Positions 3,975 through 63,519 of a DNA stretch of 64,000 bases are shown here, in pieces. A program made the position numbers and the translations under genes. This DNA comes from Flavobacteriales bacterium UBA4466 (GTDB lineage Bacteria > Bacteroidota > Bacteroidia > Flavobacteriales_D > Sanyastnellaceae). The stretch is from contig CAJJDD010000012.1 of the NCBI GenBank assembly GCA_905182895.1, positions 1-64,000 on the forward strand, given 5' to 3'. Below the pieces are notes generated by a model. That model was not told the origin of the DNA and ran no database searches. It saw only the letters and a program-made list of their open reading frames with translations. Position 1 is the first letter of the stretch. Every line of letters begins with the position of its first letter.

Positions 3975-5868
3975 TATGCTTCCAGAATATGACGTCATAG
4001 TGGTAGGTGCCGGCCACGCGGGGAATGAAGCCGCTGCTGCCGCTGCTAATCTAGGCTCTAAAGTTCTACTCATTACCATCGAATATGAACACGATCGCTC
4101 AAATGAGCTGCAACCCTGCTATGGGGGGAATTGCTAAAGGACAAATCGTAAGAGAGATAGATGCTCTTAGGCGGATATTCTGGGATAGTGTACTGATAAA
4201 ACAGCTATTCAGTTCAAGAATGCTGAATAAATCTAAAGGGCCCGCCATGTGGAGTCCTAGAACGCACAATGTCCGATTGAAAAATGTTTGATGACCGAGT
4301 GGAGACTCATGCTAGAACGAACACCTAATGTAGATTTCTGGCAAGATATGGCCACAGACTTCATTATTGGTAGAATAATGGAAAATTGAAGGAGTAATGA
4401 CGGCGTTGGGAGTAGCAATTATATTCTCATTACGGTTGTTCTAACAGCGGAACTTTTTTAAACGGACTTATTCATTTAGGAGAAAAACAATTTGGTGGAG
4501 GTAGAGCGGAGAAAGGGCTTCTACGGAATTACGGAATGCTTGTATGATTTAGGGTTTGAGTCCGGAAGGATGAAAACAGGAACTCCGCCTAGAGTTGATG
4601 GACGCTCTCGTTAGATTACTCTCAATGTTATGATCCCTCAGCCTGGAGACGTTGACCCTGGCAAGTTTTCGTATTCTAGCATAACTAAACCTTTCACAAA
4701 ACAAAGAAGTTGCCACATGACATACACCAATCCAGCTGTACATGATGTTCTAAGAACAGGTTTTGAACGATCTCCTCTGTTTCAATGGGAGAATTCATTG
4801 GCTCTAGGGCCAAGATACTGCCCAGCTATTGAAGATAAAATTGTTAGCGCTTGCTCAGAGCGTCCTAGGCACCAAATTTTTGTAGAGCCAGAAGGATGGG
4901 CTACAGTGGAAATTTATGTAAACGGATTCTCTACATCTCTCCCAGAAGATCTGCAAATGAAAGCCATGAGAGATTAATTCCTGGTTTTGAGCAGCTAAAA
5001 TGTTCAGGCCTGGTTATGCAATAGAATACGACTACTTCCAGCCCTACACAGCTGAAGCTATACTTTAGAGACAAAACACATGAAGGGCTTATTTTTTGCC
5101 GGCCAAATAAATGGCACCACAGGTTACGAAGAGGCGGCTTGCCAAGGCTTAATGGCAGGAATCAATGCACACCTTAACCACACACGAGAAAGAGCCCTTT
5201 ATATTAAACCGCTCTGAGGCGTATATTGGAGTTCTTATTGATGATTTAATCACCAAAGGAACAGACGAGCCCTATAGAATGTTTACTTCTAGAGCTGAGT
5301 ATAGACATTCTTTTAAGCGCAAGACAATGCTGACCAGAGGTTAACTGCTAGAGCTCACAAGCTAGGTTTGGCTAATGACGAGCGTTTCAAGCTTTCAGAG
5401 GAAAAACGAGAAAGAACGGAAAAAGCGATCAAGTTTATAAAAACTAAAAGCGTTTCTCCAGAAGAAATAAATCATCAGTTAGAGTTATTGAACACTCCTC
5501 CTATAAAACAAAAAGTGAAAATGGTCTCGGTATTAACCCGTCCACAAATTCACATGGAGCACCTTGTAAATAACATTCCTTCCCTAAAAGAACACTTATC
5601 CGACATCACCAACCAAGAGATAATCGAGCAAGCAGAGCTACGCAACGAAGGATATATTTCTAAGGAGCAATTAATGGCTTCTAAACTTACCAAGTTAGAA
5701 CATGTATGGATTCCAGAAGATCTTGATTTTTCAAAGCTTGGCGGACTTAGCGCAGAAGCTAAAGGAAAACTTTCAGACATAAGACCAGCATCTATAGGAC
5801 AAGCTTCGCGTATTTCTGGAGTAAGCCCAAACGATGTTTCTATCTTATTGGTGTACCTAGGAAGATAA
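3975..5868 (+). CDS. mnmG: tRNA uridine-5-carboxymethylaminomethyl(34) synthesis enzyme MnmG, multiple frameshifts
   Basis: [64 protein letters not shown], and C-terminal [29 protein letters not shown]. Confidence 0.9.
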
Positions 5869-5902
5869 TAAAAACAACAGCTTCAGCACTTCCTAGATAA
5901 AC

Positions 5903-42457: not shown

Positions 42458-43379
42458 ATGAAAATATTAGCGCTAATTATAACCTTGGTTTCATTTATTG
42501 CTGCTGAGGGGCAACAGTTACCAATTTACACAAACTATAATTTTAACTTATTTGGCATTAACCCTGCCGCAGCAGGTTCTCAATCATGCCTCGATTTAAG
42601 AATGGGTTACCGAAGGCAATGGCTAGGCTTTCCAGGAGAACCCAAGTCAACTTTTATTGGAGTTAACGGAAGTTTTGGAAAAAAGAGATTTAACTTTCAT
42701 GGTGTAGGAATAAAAGTAGAAACAGACGAGTCAGGGCCTATGGGATTTACATCACTTTCGGGGTCATATTCCTATCACATTAAAGTGAACAAGAAAAACA
42801 TGCTCTCGCTAGGCTCTTCATTAGGATTTAGTCAGCACAGATTGGATGTTGGACAAGTTACAGCAGAAGACTTTTCTGACCCAGCCATTTCAGCGTCTCA
42901 AAGTCAAGTGCTATTTCCTCAAATAGGTATGGGGATTTGGTACCAAAGTCAGGATAGGTATATCGGGTTTTCGGCTAGAAACATAATAGAGAATAAGTTC
43001 ACCAGTTTTGGAACGGGCAGCCGTTTTAGACGGCACTCCTATTTAATTCTTGGTAAATCTATTCCAGTAAATGACAACCTTTTTTTCAAACCCTCCGTAA
43101 ATATTAGACATGTAAGCAGGTCACCTTTAGCGGCAGATGTAAACCTGTTGTTTGATTTGAATGATTTGTTTGAGTTTCGGGATGTCTTTCAGAGGAGGGC
43201 ACGGAGTCTCTGGAATGGTGAAGGTCGCTGTTCTGAAGTATTTAACTATAGGTTATGCCTATGATAGAACAATAAACAAACTCAGAGTGGGAGGAGCCAA
43301 CTCTCATGAGATTATGCTGGGAATTCAAGCCTGCCCAAGGGGAGAGAAAAAAGGAATTAAATGCAGTGCATACGATTAG
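42458..43379 (+). CDS. PorP/SprF family type IX secretion membrane protein, frameshift near 43190
   Basis: QLPIYTNYNFNLFGINPAAAGSQSCLDLRMGYRRQWLGFPGEPKSTFIGVNGSF; C-terminus TIGYAYDRTINKLRVGGANSHEIMLGIQACP in the second frame. Confidence 0.92.
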
Positions 43380-43417: not shown

Positions 43418-46400
43418 GTGACTAATTATACCACCCTATCTTTAACTGCTTCAGTAAAGTCCCTCGTTTTTATTCTGAGTATACTCGGAACGAGCACTTT
43501 CGGCTATAATCAGCAGATTCAATTGAACCTCTCTGCAGGAGAGACTCAAACGCTAGAACTTAGCCAAGTAAACGGCATGAAGATTACCGGTCACGGCACT
43601 CTTCAATTGGTCTGTGGCTCTCAAGGAATTCAAATAACAGAATCCTTAGTTTTAGGAAACCAAGTAAAATTAGTTTGCGATGAAACAATCCATCTAGTTG
43701 GGTCAGGAATTCTTCAAGCCTCTCGTCTTAATTCGAACATCTCTATTCAAGGAGAATGGGAACTAAGATCAGACTTAACCTTGAAACCAGAGAAAGAAGC
43801 TCATTTCCACAATGCTATGATTAATTTGGGCAGCTCCAGTATTGTATCAGACAATTTAATCTTTTCTGGAGTGAATTTGATACACACTAATGGAGGTGTT
43901 ATAGTGGCTAATAAGTCTTTTTTATCGAATGAACAATTAGAGGTTGAGTCATCTCAGGCTGATGTGATATTTATTCCTGAGTTAGCTGAATTTACTGGTT
44001 CTACAGATCTTCCGGTACATTTCTTTTCGTCAGCGGGGAACCCTTGTGGTGATCCTGAATTTGAAATTACTGTAGAGGTTATTTCCGATTACAATGGAGC
44101 AGATATAAGCTGCAATGGCGCTGATGATGCAGAGGTTCAGTGTGTCGTAACAGGAGGTGTTGGGCCATTTGTCTGTGAGTGGTTTGGAGGGACTGGTGAC
44201 AATACAGGAGAGACTTACTCTGGACTGGGAGCTGGAACTTACACAGTATTAGTTACCGACGAAGGACAAAATGTCATTTGTGTAGAAAATGTTCAAATAG
44301 CAGAACCGCCACCCTTGGCTGTTTTCACATTAAACCTAACGATGCCTTCATGTGATGCTCTTTGCAACGGAAGCACAAATCCTATTGTGCTCGGAGGAAC
44401 AGGGTTGTATACGTTTGACTACTCTAACGGGGGAATGAATCAGGAAAACCTTAATCTCTGTGCGGGAGTGAACACGATTATGATTTCTGATGTAAATAGA
44501 CTGTCAATTAGACACCACTTTTGTTATAAACGAGGACTCCATAGACATGAACCGCTATCCGATTCTTATGTTTTGGTGATAATTTTGGAACTCCACTTGT
44601 TACTTCTGGCGGCGGCGGCGGGCCTTACGATATAGATTGGTCGACCAATGAAGCCACGAACGCGATCTCTAATTTGTCTAGTGGAACTTATTCAGTGGAA
44701 ATTCTTTATGCAGAAGACTGTTCAATAGACAGTACGTTTACTATTGTTGGTTTAGGTGAGTTAATAGTAACTATTGATGAATCTGAAAGCCCAGTATGCG
44801 TTAGTGACACTACCGGAATTATAAGCGTTTCTATTTCTGGAGGAACTCCAGAGTACACTCTAGCATGGACTAAAGAAGGGGTTCCATTTTCTATAGAAGA
44901 GGATTTGAGTGATTTAGGAATAGGAGTATATGAGCTTTCAGTTACAGACGCTTTTGGGTGCATTGGTTCACTTTCGTTGAACTTAGAGGCTCAAGAAGAA
45001 GTTATAGTGGAGACAACTCTAGTAGAAATAGATTGTTTCGAAAATTGTAATGCCAGTATAACTTCGACTATTATTCAAGCCCAGGAGCCAATCACATTCA
45101 CTTGGAGTGATGTAAATGGCATCATTTCGAATGCTGAATTTATTGAAAACATTTGTGCAGGGACTTATGAACTTGTAGTGATGGATGGAGCTGGGTGTGA
45201 GTATATCGAGACATTTATTATAGATGAGCCTGAAGAAATGGAGGTTCTGGAAGATATTACTAACATCTCTTGCAACGGCTTAGCCGAAGGGGCTATTCTT
45301 CTGACGGTGAGTGGAGGAAGCGCTCCTTACTCTACGAGTCTTCCAAGCATAGAATCCAATCCTGGAGAGTTTGTTTTAGATAACCTTATCGCTGGAAGTT
45401 ATGTGGTAGACGTAACAGATGATGAAGGGTGTGTGGTTTCTGTGCCTTTTGAGTTAACTGAGCCTGAAGCCTTATTAGTAGACCTAAGTTTCGAAGACCC
45501 GATTTGTTTTGGTGAATCATCAGGAAGTATTACGCTTGTTGTTTCTGGAGGGTCTGAGCCTTACTCAATCGAATGGGTGGAGTTGGGAGTTTTTGATGAG
45601 TTAATCCAATCAGACTTACCTTCTGGAGATTACAATATTCTAATTACAGATGCTCAAGGCTGCGAAGAGTCGTTAACCGTTACTTTAGAAGACCCTTTAG
45701 AAATAACTGTGGTAGAAACAACCAACCCTGTTCTTTGTAATGGCGATAGCACAGGCTCTATAGAGTTAGAGGTGTCTAACCCAATAGGAAACCTGAATGT
45801 TTTATGGGTTGGTAATGTGATAAACAATACTGAATTAAATCAATTTGATTTACAAGCAGGAGTATATGAAGTGACTCTTACAGATGATAATGGGTGTGAG
45901 GAAAATAGTGCTTATGAGATTCTGGAATCTCCAGAACTGGAAGTTACTGAAACTATAATCAACCCGCTATGTTTTGGTGAGCAAGGAGAGATTTCGATAG
46001 AAATTAACGGAGGACAGGAGCCTTATGATGTGTCATGGGCTGAAATAGAAGCGCCTAACCAGCAAAGTATTACGGACTTACCTACAGGAATATACACGGT
46101 AGCAGTGACAGATGCTAACCTTTGTGAAGTTACAGCGTCTTATCAAATCACTCTGCCAGATGAAATCATAATCACAGCGGAAGTGACTCAGCCTGATTGT
46201 GTATTACAGTCGGGAACTATAGAAGTAGTTAATATTACAGGTGGAGCAGGGTCATATAGTTTTATATGGTTGGAAATAGACGCTCCGGATCAAAATCTGG
46301 TTGAGAACTTAGCATCAGGGGACTATACAATTCAAGTCACAGATGCCTCTAACTGCATCACAGAAGAAGTTTATACGATAACAGAACCAGGAGTTTTAGC

Positions 46401-49400
46401 TGTATCTAGCGAGGTGACAAATGTTCTTTGTAATGGAGAAAACACGGGTAGCATCTTATTAGAAGCATCAGGTGGATTAGAGCCGTACACAGCCGTTTGG
46501 ACACCCGTTTTAGACGCTTCGTTAGCCCAAGAGAATTTAACGGCAGGAGTATATGAGGTGACTCTTACAGATGATAATGGATGTGAGTTTAACAATACCT
46601 TTGAAATAACCGCACCAGACGAGATTATAATTACAGAAGATGTTTCTGTTTTAAACTGTTCCGAAGATTTAGGTGCGATAGAAATTTCTATTGAAGGAGG
46701 AATAGAGCCTTACGGTATAGCATGGGGAGGTATAGAAGCTCCAGGAGAGACACTTTTAACAGAGTTATCTGCAGGAGATTATAGCGTAACTGTTATAGAC
46801 GATAGCGAATGCGAAGTCACGGAAGCCTATTTCATAACCGCACCAGAGGCCATAGAGATAGTAGAGGTAATAACTCAACCAAATTGCTTTGGGGAGTTAG
46901 GTGTTATTTCTTTGGAGATTACTGGAGGCACAGGACTTTACACTATAGAGTGGACAGGGATCGAAGCTGATGGAGACACAGAAATTCTAGACCTAATAGC
47001 AGGTACATATACTGTCACGGTGACCGATGAAAATGGGTGTGAGGAAGAAGAGTCCTATGAAATTATTTTAATAAACGAGCTAGCAGCTAATGTTAATATG
47101 ACACAGCCAGAGTGTTTCACTTCGACACGCCGTGCAAGCTGGGCTTCTACGACGGTGTGGGCCATATAGTATTATATGGCCGTACGGTAGTGATGAACTA
47201 TCCGCATCAGAGATAGCACCAGGATCTTACACGGTGAGTATTACTGATGCTAATTTATGCGCCATAGAAGTAGAGTTTGAAATTACAGAGCCATATGAAC
47301 TCTCATCAGAGACAATCTTTAACGGTGTGCTTTGCAATGGTGAAAACACAGGCTCAATAGACATTACCCTAGTAAACGCTACTGGAGTTATCGATTACAG
47401 TTGGGTAAATGAAGAGTTAGGGTTTACAAGCCCAACCCAAGACATAGAAAACTTGTTTGCAGGCGTTTATGAACTAACCGCTACAGATGAAATCGGATGT
47501 GTGTTTAATGAAACCTTTGAAATACTAGAAACAGAAGAATTAGTTATAACTCTAGAGAGCATCCAGAGTGAAACCTGCGAAGGGCTGGAAAATGGAAGCA
47601 TCGAGGTGTCTATTTCTGGGGGAACTTTAGACTACCAAATTGACTGGAGTGGAACAGGCTTCTCTTCTAATGATGAGGACATTTTAGAGTTAGCATCAGG
47701 AGATTATACATTAAATGTTTCAGATTTAAACGGATGTGTTGCAACTGAAACTTTCATAGTAAATTCTGGGACATTAATAACACCGAACAGTTCTAGTATA
47801 GACTCTGAGTGTTCGGTAAGCACAGGAAGTATGTCTGTCAACATAGATTCTGATAATCCTATCGAAGAAATCTCGTGGTTTGATGATGGAGTTCTTCTAA
47901 CAGATGGTTTAATTACTACCATAGAAAACCTTTCTTCAGGAACATACTCAGTAGAAATCACTGATGACCAAGGGTGTAGTGTTTCTGAAACTATTCTTAT
48001 CTCAGATACAGGGGCCGTTTCAATAAATGCTGAGGTAAGTGGAGTAAACTGCCAGGGAGACTCTAACGGCTCGATATTAATTGTTGTAACCAGTGGGACA
48101 GAGCCATACATCTTAACTTGGTCTGGACCAGTCGAGATAGCAGATGACCAATACAACCCTACCAATCTTATAACGGGAGATTATATAGCTTCCATTAATG
48201 ATTCTGAAGGATGTAATACACTCCAAGAATTTTCAGTTCTTTCCCCAGACTCATTTAGCATAAATGAAACGATTATCAATGTGAGTTGTTTCGGAAATGG
48301 AGATGGAGTAATAGCATTAGAACTCATAGGAGGAACAGAACCTTTCACTATAGATTGGATGGATTCTGATGAGGATTTAGACACACTTACAGACCTAACT
48401 CCTGGTGAATATAGCGTACTTATTACAGATGCCAATGACTGCATTACTGAAGGAATTTATCAGATAACAGAGGAAGACTTATTAACGCTGGATATTTCTT
48501 TTACAGAACTATTCTGTGTTAACCAAACCTCGACAGATATAGATATTACTGTCACTGGAGGGTTAGAGCCATACACGTTCTCCTGGACAGGTGAAGTTAC
48601 TAGCACAAATGAAGATTTAGCAGATGCAGGTATAGGGACTTATACTGTCCTCGTTACAGATGCGGTTAATTGTACAATAGAAGAAACGATTACAATAGCC
48701 CAAGGCAATGAAATTCTCATAGAAGTAATAGAAACACAACCGACATGTTTAACCAATAATGGTTCATTAACAGCAAGTGCTGTAGGTGGATCAGGGCTTG
48801 ATTATACATTCTTCTGGTATTCTATTGGAGACACTCCAACCCTTATAGGACAAGAGCCAACGCTAGACAACTTGGAATCAGGCTCATATTACTTAGAGGT
48901 TCATGATTCTGGAGGTTGTTTTAACACTGCAGAGGTAAATCTATCCAACAATCAAGGAGAAGTCACCGCTAATATCACGGATGTTTTATGTGCTCAAGAT
49001 GATTCTGGGGCCATTGAAATAGAGGCGTTAGATTTAGCGGGAACACTTTCTGTTGAGTGGGTTGGCCCTAACAGCTTCATTAGTGTAGACGAAGATATTT
49101 ATGGTTTAACCGAAGGTGAATACACCGTGACAGTTACAGACGGTAATGGCTGTCAATTAATAGAAACTTATGAAGTGGCATCTACAAATGAATTAGTTGA
49201 AGGAATAGAGGTCACTAATATCTGTTTTGGAGAAACAGGAACAGGAGCTGCAAACATTCTGCTTACGGGCGGGACAGCTCCATATATTATCAACTGGTCA
49301 GGAAATGGGCTGGTCTCTAACCAAGCGTCAATAACTGATTTAAACGAAGGCTGCTATATTTTAGAAATTTCAGATGCTAATAGTTGTTCATACACTGAAG

Positions 49401-51136
49401 AGGTTTGCCTTCATAATCTTTAGATGAAATTATTTTAAAAACATTTTAAGTGAAATCTTTGCTTTTGTCCTCATGAAGTAAGGTCAAATAGAACTTGAAA
49501 TTTCAGGAGGGAATCCGGGATATAGCATAGAATGGCTGAATAGCGATGCTGAATTTGTATCGGACCAACTATTGGTTACCGAGTTAGCTACTGGAGTTTA
49601 TACTGCCAGCATTATTGACAATAGTGGTTGTATGGCTAACATTACTGCGTCTATAACCTCTAGTCCAGAATTAACCTCGGAAGTTTTCTGAAACGCCTAT
49701 CATTTGTTTTGGAGATGAAAACGGAGCCCTAGATGTTGTGTATTCTGGTGGGGTCGGAGCATTAACTCTAACCTGGACAGGACCTAATGGCTTTACTTCA
49801 GAAGATCCTGAAAAAGTAAATGAGTATTGGTGCTTACTGTTATGAGGTCGTGGACTTTATTGGCTGTGTTATATCAGATTGCTACGCACTGAATGATCCT
49901 GGACCGTTAAACCTTGGTCAAACCGTAAATAGCACAAACTGTTTCGGAACCAATGATGGAGAGGTTTCATTAGAGGTTTCAGGCGGATATGCGCCTTATA
50001 CTACTGTTTGGACCTTAAACGGGACTCTATTTAGCACGGAAGAAGACATTGCAGGCTTGGCTATAGGAGTTTATGCTGTTAATCTTTCAGATACGATGGG
50101 ATGTACAATAGAAGACACATTTACTATTTCAGAGCTTCCGCTGTTGACGGTTGTTTTTGATAATATAATAGGTGCTACATGTGCTACTAGTTCAGATGGA
50201 GCATTTGAAACAACCGTTTCAGGCGGGATGTTAAATTATAGTTATTCATGGGTTTTAAATGGAACTGAAGAGTCAACAGAAGAAGACCCTTCAGAATTAG
50301 GCGCTGGAGATTATCAGCTCACCGTAACAGACGCTAACGATTGTAACACAGAAATAGCTTCTGTTATAATTCCAGTATTAGGAACACTGGAAGTTATAGT
50401 TCCACAGAACATCTCTTGGTGCTTTACAGAAGACTTACAACTAATAGAAACTATATCTGTAGAAGCACAAAGCATTGAATGGACAAACCCTCCAAGTACA
50501 GATGTTTTATCGACGACTAACTCTGTTTTTTTCCAAGAAGAACCAGGTGTTTATGAGTTAGTTATCACAGGAATAGATGGGCCATGTGTAGTTACAGATA
50601 CAGTAGAAGTAACCATTCATGAGCTTCCTCAATCAGACGCAGGAGAAGACCAAGATGCTGAATTAGAAGATGAGGTTATATTGGGAGGAAACCCTACCAC
50701 AGACGACTTGAACACAGTGGTTTGGGCCCCTTTTGAATTATTAAATGAAAGTAGTTTATTTAACCCGTCATATTTGGTAGTAAATAGCATTCAAAGTTTC
50801 GTGTTAACTGTTACCAGCCCAGAGGGTTGTGTTAGTGAAGACTCTACCCAAGTGACTCTTTCCCCAGAGGTTGATATCCACTCAGGATTTACTCCAAATT
50901 CAGACAATATTAATGACGTTTGGGTAATAGGAAATCTCCAAAACTATCCTTCTATTGAGGTTTGGGTTTATAATAGATGGGGAGAGGAAATGTTCTATTC
51001 TCAAGGATATAACCAACCGTGGGACGGAACGTATAATGGTGACAGCCTACCTATAGGAACATACTATTACGTAATAGACTTTAATAAACCAGGCTTTCAA
51101 TTAACTACTGACGGACCTGTAACAATACTAAGATAA
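43418..51136 (+). CDS. Giant SprB-repeat adhesin with T9SS type B C-terminal domain, several frameshifts
   Basis: Many (roughly 25-30) repeats of the type CNGENTGSILLEASGGLEPYTAVWTP...LTAGVYEVTLTDDNGCEF; ends HSGFTPNSDNINDVWVIGNLQNYPSIEVWVYNRWGEEMFYSQGYNQPWDGTYNGDSLPIGTYYYVIDF. Confidence 0.9.
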
Positions 51137-52026
51137 TGAAGAAATTAACCTTTATAATAGGCTTTGTAGCTGTTTTTATTTTCGAGTCGTTCGGTCAGCA
51201 ATTACCTCAAATTACTCAGTTTATGCTGAATAATTACGCCATTAATACGGCGTTTGCGGGAAAAGAATCAGCTATTGAAGCTAGGATATTAAACCGCGAC
51301 CAATGGACAGGAATTACAGATGCACCCAGAACATTTAATCTGTCTGTGCAGGGAATGACTCAGAACCCGAAAGTAGGTATTGGGGGGATTGTTTTTTCTG
51401 ATAATGCTGGGCCTACGCGGAGAATGGGATTAAACCTTAGTTATGCCTACCATTTAAACCTAACAGATAAATGGAAGCTAGGACTTTCTGTAGCAGGGGG
51501 AGCGTTGCAATTTTCCATAGACGGTACCAGAATTGATTTAGATCAAGCAGATGACCCAGCGTTGTTTTCGGAAAAAAGAACACAACTCGTTTTTGACGCG
51601 AGTTTTTCAGCACTTGTATATCGAGAAGACTTTTATTTTGGAGTAACTCTGCCGCAGCTAATGCAGAACAATCTAGATCTGTATGAAAGCATAGCTGAGG
51701 AAGGAAATAAATTAGAAGATCACTATTATGTTACCGCAGGGTATAAGCATGAGCTTTCAGATAAATGGGCTGTAGAACCAGCCATTTTAACTAAGTATGT
51801 CAGTCCGGCACCTTTAAAAACAGACCTTAGCCTTAGAGTGATTTATGAATCTAAAGTATGGTTAGGAGGAACGTATAGAACGAATGATGCTATAGCGATG
51901 TTCGCAGGGTATAACTATAACGATCAAATATCTATAGGCTATGCGTATGACATTACCACTTCTAGCATAAAATCTTTCAGTGACAGTACTCATGAGTTAA
52001 CACTAGCATTTAAGGTATCTAAATAA
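51136..52026 (+). CDS. PorP/SprF family type IX secretion membrane protein
   Basis: QLPQITQFMLNNYAINTAFAGKESAIEARILNRDQWTGITDAPRTFNLSVQG; TAATG overlap with the SprB-like gene. Confidence 0.93.
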   Translation: MKKLTFIIGFVAVFIFESFGQQLPQITQFMLNNYAINTAFAGKESAIEARILNRDQWTGITDAPRTFNLSVQGMTQNPKVGIGGIVFSDNAGPTRRMGLNLSYAYHLNLTDKWKLGLSVAGGALQFSIDGTRIDLDQADDPALFSEKRTQLVFDASFSALVYREDFYFGVTLPQLMQNNLDLYESIAEEGNKLEDHYYVTAGYKHELSDKWAVEPAILTKYVSPAPLKTDLSLRVIYESKVWLGGTYRTNDAIAMFAGYNYNDQISIGYAYDITTSSIKSFSDSTHELTLAFKVSK

Positions 52027-52427: not shown

Positions 52428-52445
52428 TCCTTTTCGGAACAAATG

Positions 52446-53130
52446 GACTATTTACCCTTAGAAAAGGTAGCAGCAGAACTGCTAAAAAAGATTCAATCCC
52501 TTAAATCGGGAGAGATGGCTTCTACAGAATTATCTGGTTTAGTAGGCTCTTCTAGAGATGTTTATGAGCGATTGGTTATTCTAGAATTCCAGGCTTTAGA
52601 GAAGAAAACCGCTCCAGTTAAAGAACTAAAACCATTTAAAATAGACACCGAAGCCACAGAAAAACCTGCAGTATCGAAGGAGATTAATATTCAGGAAGAG
52701 GTAGAAGAAAAAAAAGTACTCGAGAAAAAAAAGCCAGTTAAGATAGTAATAGAAGAGCCAGTCGGAGACAGAAACAATTGTTGATGAGCCAGTTAAAAAA
52801 AAGAAAAAAGAAACTCCAAAAGTAAAACCCGTTGAGAGTGAAGAACAGAAACCTGAAGTAGAATCTAAGAAAACTATAGCAGAGAAATTTGAGAATGCTC
52901 CTATTGAGAGCATAGCTAAGTCTATAACCTTAAATGAAAAATTTCAGTTCATAAGAGTGCTCTGCGGAAACAACGCTCAAAATTTTGAGATTCTTTTAGA
53001 TAAAATAAGAGAGTCGACAGATGAGAAAAGTGCGTTAAACACATTCAGCACTCTTATTACTAAGCCTTCTATAGAGGAAGAAATAGAAGTGTATGAGAAA
53101 TTCGAAGAACTCATAAAAAGAAGATTTTAA
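52446..53130 (+). CDS. Conserved hypothetical protein, frameshift near 52780
   Basis: MDYLPLEKVAAELLKKIQSLKSGEMASTELSGLVGSSRDVYERLVILEFQALEK; C-terminal half in another frame (SITLNEKFQFIRVLCGNNAQNFEILLDKIRES). Confidence 0.65.
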
Positions 53131-53131
53131 T

Positions 53132-53806
53132 ATGGCTAAACTTACAGTGGTTCCTACCCCTATAGGAAATTTAAGAGACATGACCTATAGAGCTGTAGAG
53201 ATTCTTTCTTCAGTTGATTTGGTTTTGGCTGAAGACACTCGAACTACTTTTAAGTTATTATCCCATTATCAGATAGATGCTAAGCTGCAGAGCTTTCACA
53301 TGAATAATGAGCATAAAGTAGTAGATAAATATATAAAAGCTCTTCTAGCTGGAACAGAAATAGCCTTAGTAAGTGATGCGGGAACACCCGGAATCTCAGA
53401 TCCGGGTTATATGCTAATCAGAGCCGCGGTTCAAAACAACATTACCGTAGAATGTTTACCGGGAGCTACAGCGATGATCCCTGCCGTAGTAGCCTCAGGC
53501 TTTCCGTGTGATAGATTTTATTTCGAGGGTTTTCTACCGCATAAAAAAGGGAGAGTAAAAAAAATAGAGAGCTTTAAATTATTGGATCAAACGGTAATCC
53601 TTTATGAGTCACCACATAGGATTGTGAAATTACTTGTGCAATTAATAGACGGAGGTTTTGCAACGCATAATGTGGTGGTCTGCAGAGAACTCTCAAAAAT
53701 CCACGAAGAGGTTAGCGTTGTGGTTGAGGTTCATGAAGAACTGACTGCCGCCTGAGTGAGGGGAGAGATAGTGGTTATACTTGATCCTATCCAAAGAGAT
53801 GCTTAA
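53132..53806 (+). CDS. rsmI: 16S rRNA (cytidine(1402)-2'-O)-methyltransferase with an in-frame TGA near the 3' end
   Basis: LTVVPTPIGNLRDMTYRAVEILSSVDLVLAEDTRTTFKLLSHY; after TGA at 53753-53755 the frame continues VRGEIVVILDPIQRDA. Confidence 0.92.
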
Positions 53807-55151
53807 ATACTTCTTCTACACGCTTAAATGTGCTTACTTTAATATCTACTGATGGAAGTTTAGTCTCTTTCTTACCTTGGTAAGCCATGATAATTTCTTC
53901 AAACCCTAATTTTTCAGCTTCTTGTATTCTCTGTTCTGTTCTACTAACAGCTCGCAGTTCACCTGATAAACCTATTTCAGCACAGAACGCCACCTTCCCG
54001 GGCACTGCGATATCAAGATTACTTGACAAAATTGCCGCTATAACTGCTAAATCTATTCCTATATCATCTACTCGAACTCCGCCAGCGATGTTTAAGAAAA
54101 CATCTTTTTGCCCTAATCTAAAGCCGCACCTTTTTTCTAAGACCGCCAGCAGCATGTTTAATCTTCTAGAATCTAATCCAGTAGTCACCCGCTGAGGTGT
54201 TCCGTAAACTGCGGTACTCACGAGGGCTTGGATTTCTATAAGGATGGGTCTCATTCCTTCTACAGTGCAGGCTACAGCCGAGCCGCTTAAACCGGAGTCT
54301 GTTTGGTTAATAAGAAGTTCCGAGGGGTTTTCTACTTCTCTTAAGCCAGCTCCAGTCATTTCATAAATACCTAATTCGTTGGTACTACCGAATCTATTTT
54401 TTTGAGACCTCAACAGGCGGAACATGTAATTTCTATCACCTTCAAACTGCAGAACAGTATCTACCATGTGCTCGAGTAGTTTAGGCCCGGCTATAGCCCC
54501 GTCTTTAGTGATATGTCCTATAAGGAAAATAGAAGTATTGGTTTGCTTGGCGTATTGCATTAACTCAGAAGCAGTTTCTCTAATTTGTGAGAGACTTCCA
54601 GGAGATCCTTCTATAACAGGAGAGTATAAAGTTTGTACTGAATCTATAATGATTAAATCAGGCTCTATTTCTCTAGAAATGGACCGAATAATATTTGTAT
54701 TGGTCCCGGTAAAGATGTAGAAATCTGAGGTGTTGGAATCGAGTCTTTCAGCCCTCATTTTGAGCTGTTTTTCACTCTCTTCTCCAGAGACATAAATAAT
54801 TTTTAGGCCAGGGTTATTCAACGCCAGTTGGAGCATCAATGTTGACTTCCCTATCCCGGGGTCACCGCCTACTAAAACTAAACTTCCGGGAACTAAACCT
54901 CCACCCAAAACACGATTAAGCTCTTTATCGTTTAGAATTATTCTGCTATCATTTGTAGGGTCTATAGAAGAAAATTTTACGGGCGTTTTTTCGGTATTGG
55001 TAACTTCTCTTCTATCATGCGTAGCAATACTCTTTTCTAGTACTCTTTCTTTAAGTGTGTTCCATTCATTACATGAAGAACATTTCCCAGCCCACTGAGA
55101 AGATTCGTTTCCGCAATTTGTACAGTAAAATATTGTTCTTGCCTTAGCCAT
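53787..55151 (-). CDS. radA: DNA repair protein RadA
   Basis: CTNCGNESSQWAGKCSSCNEWNT zinc finger, GGDPGIGKSTLMLQ Walker A, KNRFGSTNELGIYEM. Confidence 0.97.
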   Translation of the reverse strand: MAKARTIFYCTNCGNESSQWAGKCSSCNEWNTLKERVLEKSIATHDRREVTNTEKTPVKFSSIDPTNDSRIILNDKELNRVLGGGLVPGSLVLVGGDPGIGKSTLMLQLALNNPGLKIIYVSGEESEKQLKMRAERLDSNTSDFYIFTGTNTNIIRSISREIEPDLIIIDSVQTLYSPVIEGSPGSLSQIRETASELMQYAKQTNTSIFLIGHITKDGAIAGPKLLEHMVDTVLQFEGDRNYMFRLLRSQKNRFGSTNELGIYEMTGAGLREVENPSELLINQTDSGLSGSAVACTVEGMRPILIEIQALVSTAVYGTPQRVTTGLDSRRLNMLLAVLEKRCGFRLGQKDVFLNIAGGVRVDDIGIDLAVIAAILSSNLDIAVPGKVAFCAEIGLSGELRAVSRTEQRIQEAEKLGFEEIIMAYQGKKETKLPSVDIKVSTFKRVEEVFKHLFG

Positions 55152-55230: not shown

Positions 55231-55284
55231 ATAATGCGTTATATTCTTAAGTTCTATCTAAAAAAGGAAAGTGTTCCCTGTAAA

Positions 55285-56925
55285 TTATTTTCTAAATATA
55301 GTAATTGTTCCTTCTACAGGGTCAATATTTTCACTAGCAGTAATCGTATAAAAATACACACCATCTTCTAACTCGTCTCCTTTAGTGGTCTTCCCATACC
55401 ACGGGTTGTTATTTGAATAATTATCATTCTCATAAACTAGATTACCCCATCTATTGAAGATTCTAACTTGAACATTTTGTAGTCTCTCTATACCTTCAAT
55501 GAACCAAGCCTCATTTAACCCACCACTGAAATAACCAGCCGTTTCGCCATCTGAATCTGGTGTAATCACATTAGAGGCCTGTATAAAACAAGGAATTAGC
55601 TGTAAGACAACCTCTTCTTGTGCTGTTCCACAGTAATCATTGGCTGTGAATGTAAGTGTAGCTGCATCTGCAGGAGGAGGGATCTGATCAGACCCTACTT
55701 GAATACTTGTTTCTGAAGAAGAAAGTGTTTCTGTGAAAGGTGCTCCATCAGCATCCAAATATTCCAGCTCCCAGGTAATTGGGGCGGCGAAAGGCGTTCC
55801 GCCAGTCCAAGTTGGAGTTATTGTCTGTAAGTCTCCCGCACAGTAGAAAAGAGTATCGGTTAGATAGGTTACAGTAGGAGAGTTACTCGTATTTATAAAA
55901 GCAGAAGCTTGAGCAGTTCCACAATCATTACTAACGGTTACAGAATAATCATTAGCGGAAGAAACCTGAATAGAAGGGGTATCTTCACCAGTAGACCACT
56001 CAAAAACCCATGAAGGGTCTCCTTGTCCAGAAGGACTTAGTATAGAGGTTGCTCCGTCACAAAGAACATCGTTAAATAGGATGGCTGTGGGAGTAGGAAC
56101 TATAATTATCTGTCCTTGATCTTGGCTATTTCCACAAACATTTTCAATCTCTATAATATAATTAATGCTACTAGAGGCTTCTGCTGTTGGGTCGTTTCCA
56201 AGATTATTTGGAATCCACGTGTATGTGGCATCATCAATAACATCACTTGGGCCATAAATAGGCTCGATTAAGACGCTCGCATTATCACATGACTCATAGT
56301 CAAGTGCTTGTACTGTTGGAGTAACAGAGAACGTCAAAGAGACTTCTTCTACTCGGTCACAGACATCTGAAGTAAATGTTAAGTCATAAGTCCCTACAAA
56401 CCCTAGAGGAGCAGTAAATACATTATCGTCATTTACTGGGTTGAAAACATCGGTATATTCTAAGGTATATCCTTCTCCACCAGCAGGCACATCTACTTCC
56501 CACGTTCCCGGTAAAGCATTAAATCCACAGTTAGCTTGCTGCGTGAAAAAAGGCAGCCCATTATCTATAAGAAGGTCTCCTTCATCTGTATCGAAAACAA
56601 CGACACTATTGGTATTATAAATTTGAACTCTGATATCATCATCATCTAATCCAGAGGTAAAAAAGTACTCAATTAGCTGTCCATGAAAGACATTAAAGCC
56701 ATCTGGAGAAAAACCAGAAGTCCCGCCAATATTATAATTGAAAGGTCCTGTTCCGTCAACGTATACTTCAACGTTAGCGCCCTCCCAAGAATCTCCTTCC
56801 GAATCATATAGATATATAGGATAAACACATGTATTCGGGTCTGCCCATGCTCCGGTCCATTCTATAAGATCATCCTCGTCACACTGAGCGAGGAAATTAA
56901 CGTTAGGAACGTTTACTATTTCTTC
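55285..56925. repeat. Long direct repeat, copy 1 (partner 58566-60206)
   Basis: 1641 bp, constant offset of 3281 bp, no indels seen, only a handful of substitutions. Confidence 0.95.
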
Positions 56926-58545
56926 TTGAATTGGGATTACCACAGAGCCTTCACATCCGTCAGCATTTATTGCTGTCACTTGGAATGTTCCAGGTGTTAC
57001 GGTGATAGAGTCATTGTCTAAATCACTAGATAATATTTCACCATTGGCGTTGAACACCTCCCAGATGTATTCTGAATATATATTTTCGTCTTGAAGCACT
57101 AATTCGGTTTCTTCCCCATCACAGAGAAAATAATCTGAAGCCACCACTAGTGGATTAAAACTAGGGATTTGGTAAACACTAATAGGGCCATATTCAGTTT
57201 GACACCCTTCTAGAATTCCAATTAATGAGTATATACCGCCGGTTAGAGTGTTCGTTTGACCGTTGGTGTTATTACTCCAAACATAATCATCGAATCCGTC
57301 AGAGGCAGTTAAGTTTGCTCCAGGTTGACCTCCGCAATAAGGAATAACATCATCAATATAGCCTAATCCAGTTACCGTCAGTTCGGGGAGCGTTATATCT
57401 TGAACTACAATGTTATATATAACCACTGACTGTGCAGCCGGAGAGCCATTATCTGTCGCTGTAAAAACTAATGTGTGTTCTCCCACATTGCCAGCCCCAC
57501 CTTCAAAATAACCAGTCATAAAACCGTCTCCGTTAGAGGTCACAACCCATCCGTCTCCTTCAGAGTCGTCTACTGTTATGGTTACTGTCTGTCCAGGTTC
57601 TGGACCTATAAATGACAAATCGAATTCATAAGTATCGTTTTGACAAATAAAGAGAGTATCACAAGCATCACTGTTTCCCGCTATGGGAGGTAGGTTGTCT
57701 TCGGTAGAGCAGATGTTAAAAACAAAAGATTTATCATCTAACCAATCTATGCCATCAACAGCTCCAAAAGGCCCATCATAATCGTTTGAGTCATCTAAAA
57801 ATCTACCGAATTGAATAAAATTCACACCATCATTTCTGTTAGCGCCAACAGTTCCCGCAGCAGTTCCTCCAAAACCGTTAGTTCCACCGTTCCAATCTCC
57901 TGCGGCCCATTGCATATCTTGGTAAAACAGTCCTACATTATTTCCAAGTCCAACTGCTTCATCAGATTGGTCAGTAATTACTATTTGAAAAGTATTGTTT
58001 AAATTACCATGCTGGTTGTAATATCCAACATCCAAGTAGGTGATATATGCAGCAGTTGGCGTAGTCCAATAATAGACAGTTCCACATCCTGCACATTGTA
58101 AATCAATATCTGCCCAGTAACCAGCGATCATGGCAAAATCATCTGATGGAAAACCAGCAGGGACGAAGGACGTATTGAAATTATCGAATGTAATATTCCC
58201 CTTCATATTGATATAGAACTGATCATAGTTTATTCCGAAATGACAGAATTCAAAATCTAAATCAAAAGGTCCCCAAGCACCGTCTAATGAGTTTCCAGAA
58301 TCAGGAGTATTCTCATCTAATTCTATAGCGCTATCTGGAATAGGCACAAAAGAATAGCAGTCTGTCGAGGTTATTTCACCTCCCCCGCCACGAAGCATCT
58401 TTTTACTAATGTAAGGCTTAGCTTGAGCTTCTTTTTGAAGTTGCTCTGACTCTTTTTTAGGTAAATAACGCTCGTTAATATCTCTTTCTTGAGCGAACGA
58501 GCTTAAGCATACCGATAAGCAGATTAGTAATAATAGAGTTTTCAT
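55285..58545 (-). CDS. Secreted NIDO-like domain protein with T9SS type B (CHU_C) C-terminal domain, copy A
   Basis: Signal peptide; GNITFDNFNTSFVPAGFPSDDFAMIAGYWADIDL nidogen-like segment; C-terminal ASNVITPDSDGETAGYFSGGLNEAWFIEGIERLQNVQVRIFNRWGNLVYENDNYSNNNPWYGKTTKGDELEDGVYFYTI. Confidence 0.85.
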   Translation of the reverse strand: MKTLLLLICLSVCLSSFAQERDINERYLPKKESEQLQKEAQAKPYISKKMLRGGGGEITSTDCYSFVPIPDSAIELDENTPDSGNSLDGAWGPFDLDFEFCHFGINYDQFYINMKGNITFDNFNTSFVPAGFPSDDFAMIAGYWADIDLQCAGCGTVYYWTTPTAAYITYLDVGYYNQHGNLNNTFQIVITDQSDEAVGLGNNVGLFYQDMQWAAGDWNGGTNGFGGTAAGTVGANRNDGVNFIQFGRFLDDSNDYDGPFGAVDGIDWLDDKSFVFNICSTEDNLPPIAGNSDACDTLFICQNDTYEFDLSFIGPEPGQTVTITVDDSEGDGWVVTSNGDGFMTGYFEGGAGNVGEHTLVFTATDNGSPAAQSVVIYNIVVQDITLPELTVTGLGYIDDVIPYCGGQPGANLTASDGFDDYVWSNNTNGQTNTLTGGIYSLIGILEGCQTEYGPISVYQIPSFNPLVVASDYFLCDGEETELVLQDENIYSEYIWEVFNANGEILSSDLDNDSITVTPGTFQVTAINADGCEGSVVIPIQEEIVNVPNVNFLAQCDEDDLIEWTGAWADPNTCVYPIYLYDSEGDSWEGANVEVYVDGTGPFNYNIGGTSGFSPDGFNVFHGQLIEYFFTSGLDDDDIRVQIYNTNSVVVFDTDEGDLLIDNGLPFFTQQANCGFNALPGTWEVDVPAGGEGYTLEYTDVFNPVNDDNVFTAPLGFVGTYDLTFTSDVCDRVEEVSLTFSVTPTVQALDYESCDNASVLIEPIYGPSDVIDDATYTWIPNNLGNDPTAEASSSINYIIEIENVCGNSQDQGQIIIVPTPTAILFNDVLCDGATSILSPSGQGDPSWVFEWSTGEDTPSIQVSSANDYSVTVSNDCGTAQASAFINTSNSPTVTYLTDTLFYCAGDLQTITPTWTGGTPFAAPITWELEYLDADGAPFTETLSSSETSIQVGSDQIPPPADAATLTFTANDYCGTAQEEVVLQLIPCFIQASNVITPDSDGETAGYFSGGLNEAWFIEGIERLQNVQVRIFNRWGNLVYENDNYSNNNPWYGKTTKGDELEDGVYFYTITASENIDPVEGTITIFRK

Positions 58546-58565
58546 TTTATAAGGTGGTGTAAAGG

Positions 58566-60206
58566 TTATTTTCTAAATATAGTAACTGTTCCTTCTACAG
58601 GGTCAATATTTTCACTAGCAGTAATCGTATAAAAATACACACCATCTTCTAACTCGTCTCCTTTAGTGGTCTTCCCATACCACGGGTTGTTATTTGAATA
58701 ATTATCATTCTCATAAACTAGATTACCCCATCTATTAAAGATTCTAACTTGAACATTTTGTAGTCTCTCTATACCTTCAATGAACCAAGCCTCATTTAAC
58801 CCACCACTGAAATAACCAGCCGTTTCGCCATCTGAATCTGGTGTAATCACATTAGAGGCCTGTATAAAACAAGGAATTAGCTGTAAGACAACCTCTTCTT
58901 GTGCTGTTCCACAGTAATCATTGGCTGTGAATGTAAGTGTAGCTGCATCTGCAGGAGGAGGGATCTGATCAGACCCTACTTGAATACTTGTTTCTGAAGA
59001 AGAAAGTGTTTCTGTGAAAGGTGCTCCATCAGCATCCAAATATTCCAGCTCCCAGGTAATTGGGGCGGCGAAAGGCGTTCCGCCAGTCCAAGTTGGAGTT
59101 ATTGTCTGTAAGTCTCCCGCACAGTAGAAAAGAGTATCGGTTAGATAGGTTACAGTAGGAGAGTTACTCGTATTTATAAAAGCAGAAGCTTGAGCAGTTC
59201 CACAATCATTACTAACGGTTACAGAATAATCATTAGCGGAAGAAACCTGAATAGAAGGGGTATCTTCACCAGTAGACCACTCAAAAACCCATGAAGGGTC
59301 TCCTTGTCCAGAAGGACTTAGTATAGAGGTTGCTCCGTCACAAAGAACATCGTTAAACAGGATGGCTGTGGGAGTAGGAACTATAATTATCTCTCCTTGA
59401 TCTTGGCTATTTCCACAAACATTTTCAATCTCTATAATATAATTAATGCTACTAGAGGTTTCTGCTGTTGGGCCGCTTCCAAGATTATTTGGAATCCACG
59501 TGTATGTGGCATCATCAATAACATCACTTGGGCCATAAATAGGCTCGATTAAGACGCTCGCATTATCACATGACTCATAGTCAAGTGCTTGTACTGTTGG
59601 AGTAACAGAGAACGTCAAAGAGACTTCTTCTACTCGGTCACAGACATCTGAAGTAAATGTTAAGTCATAAGTCCCTACAAACCCTAGAGGAGCAGTAAAT
59701 ACATTATCGTCATTTACTGGGTTGAAAACATCGGTATATTCTAAGGTATATCCTTCTCCACCAGCAGGCACATCTACTTCCCACGTTCCCGGTAAAGCAT
59801 TAAATCCACAGTTAGCTTGCTGCGTGAAAAAAGGCAGCCCATTATCTATAAGAAGGTCTCCTTCATCTGTATCGAAAACAACGACACTATTGGTATTATA
59901 AATTTGAACTCTGATATCATCATCATCTAATCCAGAGGTAAAAAAGTACTCAATTAGCTGTCCATGAAAGACATTAAAGCCATCTGGAGAAAAACCAGAA
60001 GTCCCGCCAATATTATAATTGAAAGGTCCTGTTCCGTCAACGTATACTTCAACGTTAGCGCCCTCCCAAGAATCTCCTTCCGAATCATATAGATATATAG
60101 GATAAACACATGTATTCGGGTCTGCCCATGCTCCGGTCCATTCTATAAGATCATCCTCGTCACACTGAGCGAGGAAATTAACGTTAGGAACGTTTACTAT
60201 TTCTTC
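58566..60206. repeat. Long direct repeat, copy 2 (partner 55285-56925)
   Basis: See partner; identity begins at the stop codon and ends abruptly after TTTACTATTTCTTC. Confidence 0.95.
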
Positions 60207-61846
60207 ATTAATTTGTATTATTCTATTCCCAGGGCACTCTCCATCATCTGTGACCGTCACTTGGTATAACCCCGGCCCAACCTCTATAGTTGCTTGTTCA
60301 GTGTCTTCAGAAATAATGTTTCCATCACCGTCTACTACTGCCCAAGCTATACTTGTGTAATCGTCTGCATCATCTAGTGTAATTTCAGTAGTCTCCCCTT
60401 CACACAAGAATAAAGACTGAGCGGTTATACCTGGGTTAAACACAGGGATTTCAAATACGGTTACGGGACCAGCCTCTGTATCACAACCTTCGATAAAAGC
60501 GGTAAGTGTGTATATTCCTTGGTTAAAACTAGAAGTTTGTAGAGGCAAGTCATTACTCCATAAATAACTATCGAACCCATCAGTTCCTGAAAGCGTTACA
60601 CCGTCTTGACCTTGGCAGTATGACACAGCATTAACGATGTCTCCTTCGAAATATATATCTAAATCTGGAACTTCTATATCCAACACTTCTACTACATAAG
60701 TAACAGTCGTAGAAAGTGGAGGTGTTCCATTATCAGTAGCGGTGAATGAAATATCATAAAACCCTGGAGTAGTATCAGAATTCAGTATTGCGGTAACCGT
60801 AGCTGTAGAACCTCCCGTAGCATTTATACTAATATCTGGAAAACCACCATCCTCAAAAGTCACCTCCATAGTTTGATTATTTTCAGGAGCTAAGAACGTT
60901 AATTCTATTATTTCTGTGTCATTTGCACATAGAACTAAAGTGTCTCCACAACTTCCGCCAGCATCTCCTAATACTAGAGGAGGAAGGTTTTCATTGGCAG
61001 AGATATTTGCGTTAAATGTAATTGTCTGGTCATCTAACCAGCTAACGCCATCAGTAGTGGCAAAAGGGCCGTCATAATCATCTCCTTCCTGGTCGAACTC
61101 ACCAAAAGAAATAAAATCATTATTATTCCCAGCGCTTGCCCCGACATTAGCAGGCGAACCACCAAAACCGTTAGTTCCATTAGAAGCCGAACCAGTAGTC
61201 CATTGCATATCTAAATAACAGAATTGAGCAGTGTTACCAGAAGTCAGCACCTCTGAACCTTCTGGAGTGAAAATTACCTGAAAAGAGTTAACCTTATCGT
61301 TTTGCTCGTTAAAGTAGCCAACTTCAATCCAGTTGACATAAACAGCGTCATCTGTTACTTTATAGTATAAATCGCCACAAGCGCCACAACCGAAATCTAC
61401 ATCTGCCCAAAACGGTGCTAACATCACATCATTATTAGGAAAGCCTGATGGGGTACATGTCCCGTTGGCCCCATCAAAAGTAACATTCCATTGGTGTTGA
61501 TCCACATACTATGTAAGCAGTATCCAGAAGGTTCAAAATTAAAAGGAAAACCAATATTGGCAGTACTCCCATCATCAGTTCCTTGAGCACCGAAATTAGC
61601 TAGAGTATAAGTGTCATCTGGCTCTATCCAGCAGTCACACTCTCCTTCGCGCTCACCTGCCACTGAAGGCTGAACTGTTACGTGGTCAGAAACCCCTTCA
61701 TTAGGATTAGCGATAGTATAACTTCCATTTAAAAGTTCTCCGGAATTTTTAAGTGCTCTATACTCCTCAGAGTCTAATTGAACTTCTTGAGCTATACCTA
61801 AACTTAAGGCGAACAGAAGGGAAATGGTTATAAGTATTGATTTCAT
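58566..61846 (-). CDS. Secreted NIDO-like domain protein with T9SS type B C-terminal domain, copy B, frameshift near 61500
   Basis: Signal peptide in frame from 61846; NVTFDGANGTCTPSGFPNNDVMLAPFWADVDF; C-terminal half nearly identical to copy A. Confidence 0.85.
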
Positions 61847-61935: not shown

Positions 61936-63002
61936 TCAGAATAAAATTTTACCTGATTCTGATTTATTTTTCACTACGTATATATAAGCTCCTTCCGGAG
62001 CTAGGTTTTGGTTGACGTCTAATCCATTCCAACTTTTAAGGTCATCATCAGACTTAAAAACTAAGGTCCCTTCTACATTAAATATAAAGATCTCATACCA
62101 GAGGATGTTCTCTGACTTTTCAGTATCTATGTCGAACACATCATTATATCCTGAAGAGGACTGTGGCGTAAATGTGTTAGGCATAAACAAGAGCGGTTCC
62201 AAGGTGATCATCTCATTGTGAAAAAGGGTGTTCACTAACACACTTTTTTCGTTATACATACGAGCCATAATGGTAAACTCTCCAGCAGCGGTAAACTCAT
62301 GATTAAATGAACTTTCCTCGGATGTGAGCACATCGTTTATATACCAATTCACCTGTTGAGAAGAGGAAGGTTGGTTTAGTTTATAAGAGAAAACACTCTT
62401 TTTAGCGTCTAGTTGAATACTCGAGATTTTAGTAGCCATTACTACCGAAAGAGCGACCGTATTAGCTTCAGCATCTATATAGGGATTTGGCTCTGAAGTC
62501 TCTTGAGAAGTTAGCTCATCATTTGATTGATTTGAATTAACCGATGAACTTTGCTCTAATGCTCCAAGAATTACTTCTTGTATCTCTTCACTAATTGCTT
62601 CAGGCTCTCTGGTGTTCGAATAGCTGGAGGAACAACTGTCCTCTTTTCTATGCTATTTTTTTCTTCTTTTACCTCACTAATATCTGTTTTGTTCTCTTCG
62701 GTATTAGCTGGCTCAGACAGGGTGCTTTCTTCAAAAGGAATAGAAGTTTCTTCCTTAGTAATCTCTGTGTTCTGAACCGTTTCTTTAGAAACATCACTAG
62801 ATAGTGTTAACACAGTTACTGCTACCACCGAGGTAAGTAAAACGACAGCAGCGACCTTACCTAGAATAGAAGTAAAGAGCCCGCTAGATGTGGCTGAGCT
62901 AGAGAGCTGAGTGGAAACTTCCGCCCACGCACCAGAGGGAATGCTAGAAGAAGCGTTATCAAACTTTTCTTTAATGATATGTTCGAAATCCTGATTACTC
63001 AT
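61936..63002 (-). CDS. Putative transmembrane anti-sigma factor with periplasmic PKD-like and CHU_C-like (T9SS type B-like) C-terminus, frameshift near 62600
   Basis: Follows the ECF sigma gene (8-nt overlap); cytosolic N-terminus, single TM KVAAVVLLTSVVAVTVLTL; C-terminal MPNTFTPQSSSGYNDVFDIDTEKSENILWYEIFIFNVEGTLVFKSDDDLKSWNGLDVNQNLAPEGAYIYVVKN. Confidence 0.75.
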
Positions 63003-63519
63003 TTTCTTGAATCAGTTTTTGAAGTCTGAGCTTGGCTTTTCTATACTGAGTTTTAGAAGTGCTTTCTGAAATTTCGAGTTTGTCTGCTATTTCTTTATGA
63101 GAATACCCTTCTACAGCATACATATTAAACACTGTTCTGTATCCAGTAGGAAGCGATGAGATTAATAGAGTAAGTTCTTGAAAACCCATTTGGCTTAAGG
63201 CATCAGCGCTAGACGTTTCCTCATCATGATCTTCGATGTTTTCATTAAAACTGAACTTTTTATCTTTTCTTAATATGGTGAGACAATTATTTACCATCAC
63301 TGTTCGAATCCAGCCACCTAATGACCCAGAGCCTGAGAACTTCTCTAAGTTAGAGAACACTTTAATAAAACCTTCCTGAAGCATGTCTATTGCTTGGTCG
63401 TCTCTATTAGCATATCTATTACATATCGTCATCATCTGAGGAGCATATAAGTCAAACAGTCTTTTCTGCGCTTTTTTATTTCCACGCAAACACTTTTTTA
63501 CAAGTTCCTGTTCTTCCAT
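62995..63519 (-). CDS. RNA polymerase sigma-70 family (ECF) factor
   Basis: LFDLYAPQMMTICNRYANRDDQAIDMLQEGFIKVFSNLEKF and YSHKEIADKLEISESTSKTQYRKAKLRLQKLI. Confidence 0.93.
   Translation of the reverse strand: MEEQELVKKCLRGNKKAQKRLFDLYAPQMMTICNRYANRDDQAIDMLQEGFIKVFSNLEKFSGSGSLGGWIRTVMVNNCLTILRKDKKFSFNENIEDHDEETSSADALSQMGFQELTLLISSLPTGYRTVFNMYAVEGYSHKEIADKLEISESTSKTQYRKAKLRLQKLIQENE

Follow-up and report, generated by a model that had tools for sequence, protein, structure and literature searches.

Conflicting histories of the N and C halves in a tandem pair of NIDO–CHU_C genes from Flavobacteriales bacterium UBA4466

Two adjacent genes of Flavobacteriales bacterium UBA4466 are composed of N and C halves with conflicting histories: the N halves group by gene across species, the C halves group by genome, and the DNA encoding the C halves is homogenised, synonymous sites included. 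We consider it very probable that this is a tandem pair arising from an old duplication, in which the C halves were homogenised by recombination between the neighbours. Both genes are located in a stretch of 64,000 nucleotides (GCA_905182895.1, contig CAJJDD010000012.1, positions 1 to 64,000), referred to below as the window, and were compared above all with G001, a genome of the same genus.

The gene pair and its near-identical tract

The features under study are as follows, all on the minus strand except the spacer:
55285..58545, gene 1: ORF of 1086 aa; Pfam NIDO (7e-14) and CHU_C (1.3e-17), TIGR04131 (5.5e-9)
58566..61846, gene 2: tandem paralogue with the same domain order; ORFs 61424-61846 and 58566-61505; intact G001 orthologue
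58546..58565, spacer (no strand): 20 bp from the gene 2 stop to the gene 1 start
56926..58545, N half of gene 1: NIDO and Ig-like; 76% aa identity to its G001 orthologue
60207..61846, N half of gene 2: 74% aa identity to its G001 orthologue; ~92% DNA identity to the G002 copy (see below)
55285..56925, C-half tract, gene 1 copy: from the stop codon to the boundary with the Ig-like domain before it; 99.57% identical to 58566-60206
58566..60206, C-half tract, gene 2 copy: one of only two copies in the genome
56112..56195, difference patch: four of the seven differences, all non-synonymous; counterpart 59393-59476
55300..55581, CHU_C sorting domain of gene 1: profile match
58584..58862, CHU_C sorting domain of gene 2: profile match
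53787..55151, radA: conserved downstream neighbour, syntenic in 15 other genera
62995..63519, sigma factor gene: conserved upstream neighbour, syntenic

The two tract copies align at an offset of 3281 bp with 1634 of 1641 bases matching and no indels. An earlier note, made from the letters of this DNA, had described a fixed-offset alignment with few substitutions, and its three example differences are real; it had also reported identity from the stop codon to an abrupt stop, in agreement with the first mismatches outside the tract, which lie at 56926 and, directly beyond the stop codon, at 55284. On one side the tract takes in the stop codon up to its last base, and on the other it stops within both genes (56925/60206). 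Five of the seven mismatches (gene 1 coordinates 55305, 55456, 56077, 56112, 56178, 56192, and 56195) are non-synonymous, and four fall within 84 bp (P = 0.015 by simulation), in a patch that is possibly poor in conversion or a site of paralogue-specific change. This patch and its counterpart align with the columns where the G001 paralogues are least alike (36-53%).

Compared with the 7 of 1638 bases that differ between the C halves of the window paralogues, 603 of 1263 aligned bases differ between the N halves, and the protein identities are 99.1% and 41.5%, respectively; the N halves are homologous yet diverged, as had been noted. Uniform divergence along both genes, which the earlier note had held up as the contrary outcome, is rejected (hypergeometric log10 P ~ -249). 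GC content, considered as a sign of biased conversion, shows no difference between N and C halves. At the DNA level the source genome holds two tract copies only, in an assembly of 27 contigs that is ~63% complete, and outside the pair the closest full match to the tract protein in it is ~29% identical.

Each protein comprises a signal peptide-like N terminus, a NIDO domain, Ig/PKD-like domains, and a C-terminal CHU_C/TIGR04131 domain (type B T9SS signal), whose scores exceed the curated cut-offs in both proteins, and a PorP/SprF gene is found nearby at 51136-52026. Judging from their sequences, both proteins are most likely secreted by the T9SS, and they most likely act as a pair of surface adhesins, or as components of a surface layer, that share a stalk and an anchor, an assignment based on domain content, the T9SS sorting domains, and a generic likeness to Ig-chain proteins such as GhpA. 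The pair lies in the lepA-sigma-radA locus, where the sigma factor gene and a gene for a CHU_C-bearing protein precede it and radA follows, and gene 1 and gene 2 are probably co-transcribed.

Histories of the two halves and of the locus

Orthologous N halves of the window and G001 share 76% (gene 1) and 74% (gene 2) amino acid identity, compared with ~41% between paralogues. The C halves, on the other hand, are 99.1% identical within the window and 70.7% within G001, while all between-genome pairs reach 58-60%; in the G001 paralogues, the C halves are 71% and the N halves 42% identical. Trees including 15 outgroup proteins (G0, window genome; G1, G001; g1 and g2, genes) recovered (G0g1,G1g1) and (G0g2,G1g2), each with 100/100 support, for the N halves, with grouping by genome rejected (p-AU 3e-6 and 2e-4), and (G0g1,G0g2) with 100/99 and (G1g1,G1g2) with 96/93 for the C halves, with grouping by gene rejected (p-AU 7e-4 and 4e-5). 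In both genomes, similarity changes from gene-wise to genome-wise at one and the same alignment column (~563). Comparison of the two window copies gave a dS of 0.005 for the C halves and saturation for the N halves. Protein-level constraint is thereby ruled out as the cause of C-half identity, and the identity is attributed to copying at the DNA level. The sister-genome comparison and the synonymous divergence, both suggested in the earlier note as checks, therefore indicate together that the duplication predates the species split and that the C halves were homogenised later. Accordingly, the conflicting trees and the domain edge described below uphold the domain-limited homogenisation of the C half that had been put forward, whereas a diversifying display domain is not supported, as the divergence of the N halves is older than the species split and their rate of change between species (dN 0.18) is lower than that of the C half (0.33-0.35). 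The pair displays the features of segment-limited concerted evolution, namely likeness of paralogues within a genome in part of the gene, a remainder that follows the old duplication, and homogenised synonymous sites.

A single NIDO-CHU_C gene occupies the lepA-radA locus in the 15 other genera examined, and among 114 genomes of the family the full-length tandem pair appeared in this genus only, as read from the listed coordinates. G001 carries both genes on two contigs, one with lepA, the sigma factor gene, and gene 2, the other with gene 1 and radA. These contigs (L033, L034) end in transposase-adaptor-like sequence, e.g. CTGTCTCTTATACACATCT, which was not trimmed from the assembly and is read as false coding sequence. 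Cryomorphaceae bacterium ASP10-05a (G002) is a metagenome bin limited to contigs >10 kb (PMC4620155). One of its contigs stops 174 nt into the gene 2 tract, and another begins within the last gene before radA, 150 nt short of its stop codon. Contigs ending inside the tract in both genes are as expected if near-identical repeats stood there in a short-read assembly, and we infer that G002 has the same two-gene arrangement. The G003 contigs break off after ~220 nt of gene 2 and, on the radA side, ~100 nt upstream of that gene. A scan of the genome collection returned nothing beyond the G002 contigs. Elsewhere in the family, two short NIDO proteins (~450 aa each) are adjacent on one contig (G079, C88, 1880-4408).

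It is very probable that an ancestral single NIDO-Ig-CHU_C gene at the lepA-radA locus was duplicated in tandem in the ancestor of the genus, that the N halves then split into two stable types, and that the 3′ halves have been repeatedly overwritten through homologous recombination between the neighbours, presumably of the RecA type, giving concerted evolution of the C half. The mechanism may have been gene conversion or, alternatively, an unequal crossover with later contraction, the two being indistinguishable here.

Number, edge and direction of the events

The dS of radA to G002 is 0.26, and because the C-half dS is 0.005, the latest event in the window genome is far younger than the split from G002; by this measure, C-half homogenisation in the window genome is very recent. 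The recency proposed earlier consequently holds for the window genome, while G001 additionally requires a second, older homogenisation. A 1-aa deletion and a 9-aa insertion are common to the two G001 C halves but occur in neither the window copies nor the outgroups, and this speaks for a separate event later than the species split. Nevertheless, the AU test retains alternative rootings of the C-half tree in which the G001 paralogues are not sisters (p 0.37-0.42), the root being uncertain with a distant outgroup, and the older homogenisation may predate the species split.

In an AlphaFold model of middling quality (mean pLDDT 68, pTM 0.36), the last strand of the Ig-like domain spans residues 532-541 and the tract starts at residue 541, suggesting that it covers whole downstream domains and has its edge at a predicted domain edge. 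This match, together with the recurrence of the same edge in two lineages, could be taken to mean that selection recurrently keeps the C halves identical, for co-assembly or for a common export or anchoring partner, in addition to recombination between neighbours. It would also fit the confinement of homogenisation to the gene 1/gene 2 pair, although CHU_C domains above the cut-off occur in at least 24 places in the genome. However, a fixed edge is expected without selection, because heterology blocks further conversion and, after the halves have come to differ in similarity, recombination stays within the similar part; adjacency alone accounts for the conversion of this pair, and five of the seven recent changes are non-synonymous. 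We therefore regard active maintenance of an identical C half as rather unlikely; if true, it would mean two old receptor types on one rapidly changing common stalk evolving as a unit. Under recombination alone, the edge would persist as similarity collapses there and heteroduplex extension is blocked.

As for direction, G002 gene 2 carries 12 differences from window gene 2 within the tract's first 48 nt and 2 within the following 126 nt, and the upstream N half is ~8-10% different in a gapped DNA alignment. These few sites suggest that, at least where this edge is concerned, window gene 2 acted as recipient, and gene 1 would then be the donor in the latest event. In the compared stretch of G002 (L035 14090-14263), the 2 differences in 126 nt past the first 48 nt are fewer than the radA divergence would suggest, which possibly reflects exchange between species, or chance.

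Assembly quality, known systems and significance

Gene 2 is frame-broken near 61487, a feature missed by the earlier note. Its G001 orthologue is intact, and G002 gene 2 is unbroken at the equivalent position and interrupted further on by a run of N and a contig end. Compared with its G002 orthologues, the window shows about ten frame changes between positions 42458 and 63519, in these genes:
61937-63002, hypothetical protein
near 61487, gene 2
43577-51133, SprB/CHU_C gene
52443-53127, further gene
42458-43376, further gene
53132-53755, rsmI

Such changes suggest indel errors in the window assembly. Because they are spread over 42-63.5 kb and hit other genes as well, the break in gene 2 is a probable sequencing error rather than decay, and gene 2 is not accepted as a pseudogene. 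Around 61450-61550, identity of gene 2 to G002 drops to 73% over 100 columns that take in the frame break and the stretch immediately ahead of it, compared with ~92% on either side, for which error, strain mixing, or a small imported patch are candidate readings.

These frame breaks raise the question of whether one C half was copied or merged into both genes by the assembler. In a short-read graph, a near-identical repeat split by unique sequence can yield a wrong copy number or merged differences; the longest exact runs common to both copies, 730 and 620 bp as derived from the mismatch positions, exceed short reads, and contigs of relatives break at this locus. The two copies, however, retain seven distinct substitutions and each has its own unique flanks; G001, a separate assembly, has the same genes with C halves more alike than N halves, yet clearly distinct; and in G002 the contigs break off within the tract of either gene, the behaviour expected of near-identical repeats. 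An artefact is hence improbable, whereas copy number and the exact substitution count are subject to spanning reads, all genomes compared being draft assemblies. The cassette replacement raised in the earlier note, a recent whole-gene tandem duplication after which one N half was swapped for a diverged cassette, would give the same picture in this genome alone, but it has next to no standing, as both N halves have clear orthologues in G001 (74-76%, 100/100 support) and that of gene 2 is ~92% identical in G002, so that neither is a recent import.

Homogenisation of C halves in an old tandem pair, our preferred reading, has exact precedents in homA/homB and babA/babB of Helicobacter pylori, where the 5′ segment follows the gene and the 3′ segment the strain, as attributed to intragenomic gene conversion (PMC2795765, on homA/homB and citing babA/babB). 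Like these, the present pair shows segment-limited concerted evolution. Unlike these, which are not T9SS proteins and have other domains, its members are immediate tandem neighbours with N halves far more diverged (41% aa). The near-identical adhesin repeats of Porphyromonas gingivalis rgpA/kgp/hagA are known to break short-read assemblies (PMC5266723). Their products resemble the present ones in being T9SS-exported surface proteins with different N-terminal domains and near-identical common parts, and differ in being protease-adhesins with internal repeats and without a NIDO domain. They carry type A sorting signals and are encoded at separate loci. Aureispira GhpA (PDB 9flp and others) likewise contains a chain of Ig-like domains, and positions 704-1162 gave a profile match to GhpA 5397-5898. 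A GhpA-type grappling hook was rejected, as GhpA has 5898 aa compared with 1086 aa for the gene 1 product, and a single-sequence search with gene 1 gave no match to GhpA; the domain type is shared, not the membership. Foldseek matches with the AlphaFold model as query had low TM-scores and reflect generic Ig-chain similarity only.

In the literature library that we searched, there was no report of gene conversion in T9SS paralogues or in CHU_C proteins of Flavobacteriales, which does not prove its absence. The gene pair is a clear case of a known process, and it offers a clean, phylogenetically tested instance, from uncultured marine-type flavobacteria, of T9SS surface proteins in which half of the gene undergoes concerted evolution. 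It also serves as a warning that draft assemblies and gene trees are fragmented or misled by pairs of this kind, and that a half which looks "conserved" inside a genome can evolve faster between species.
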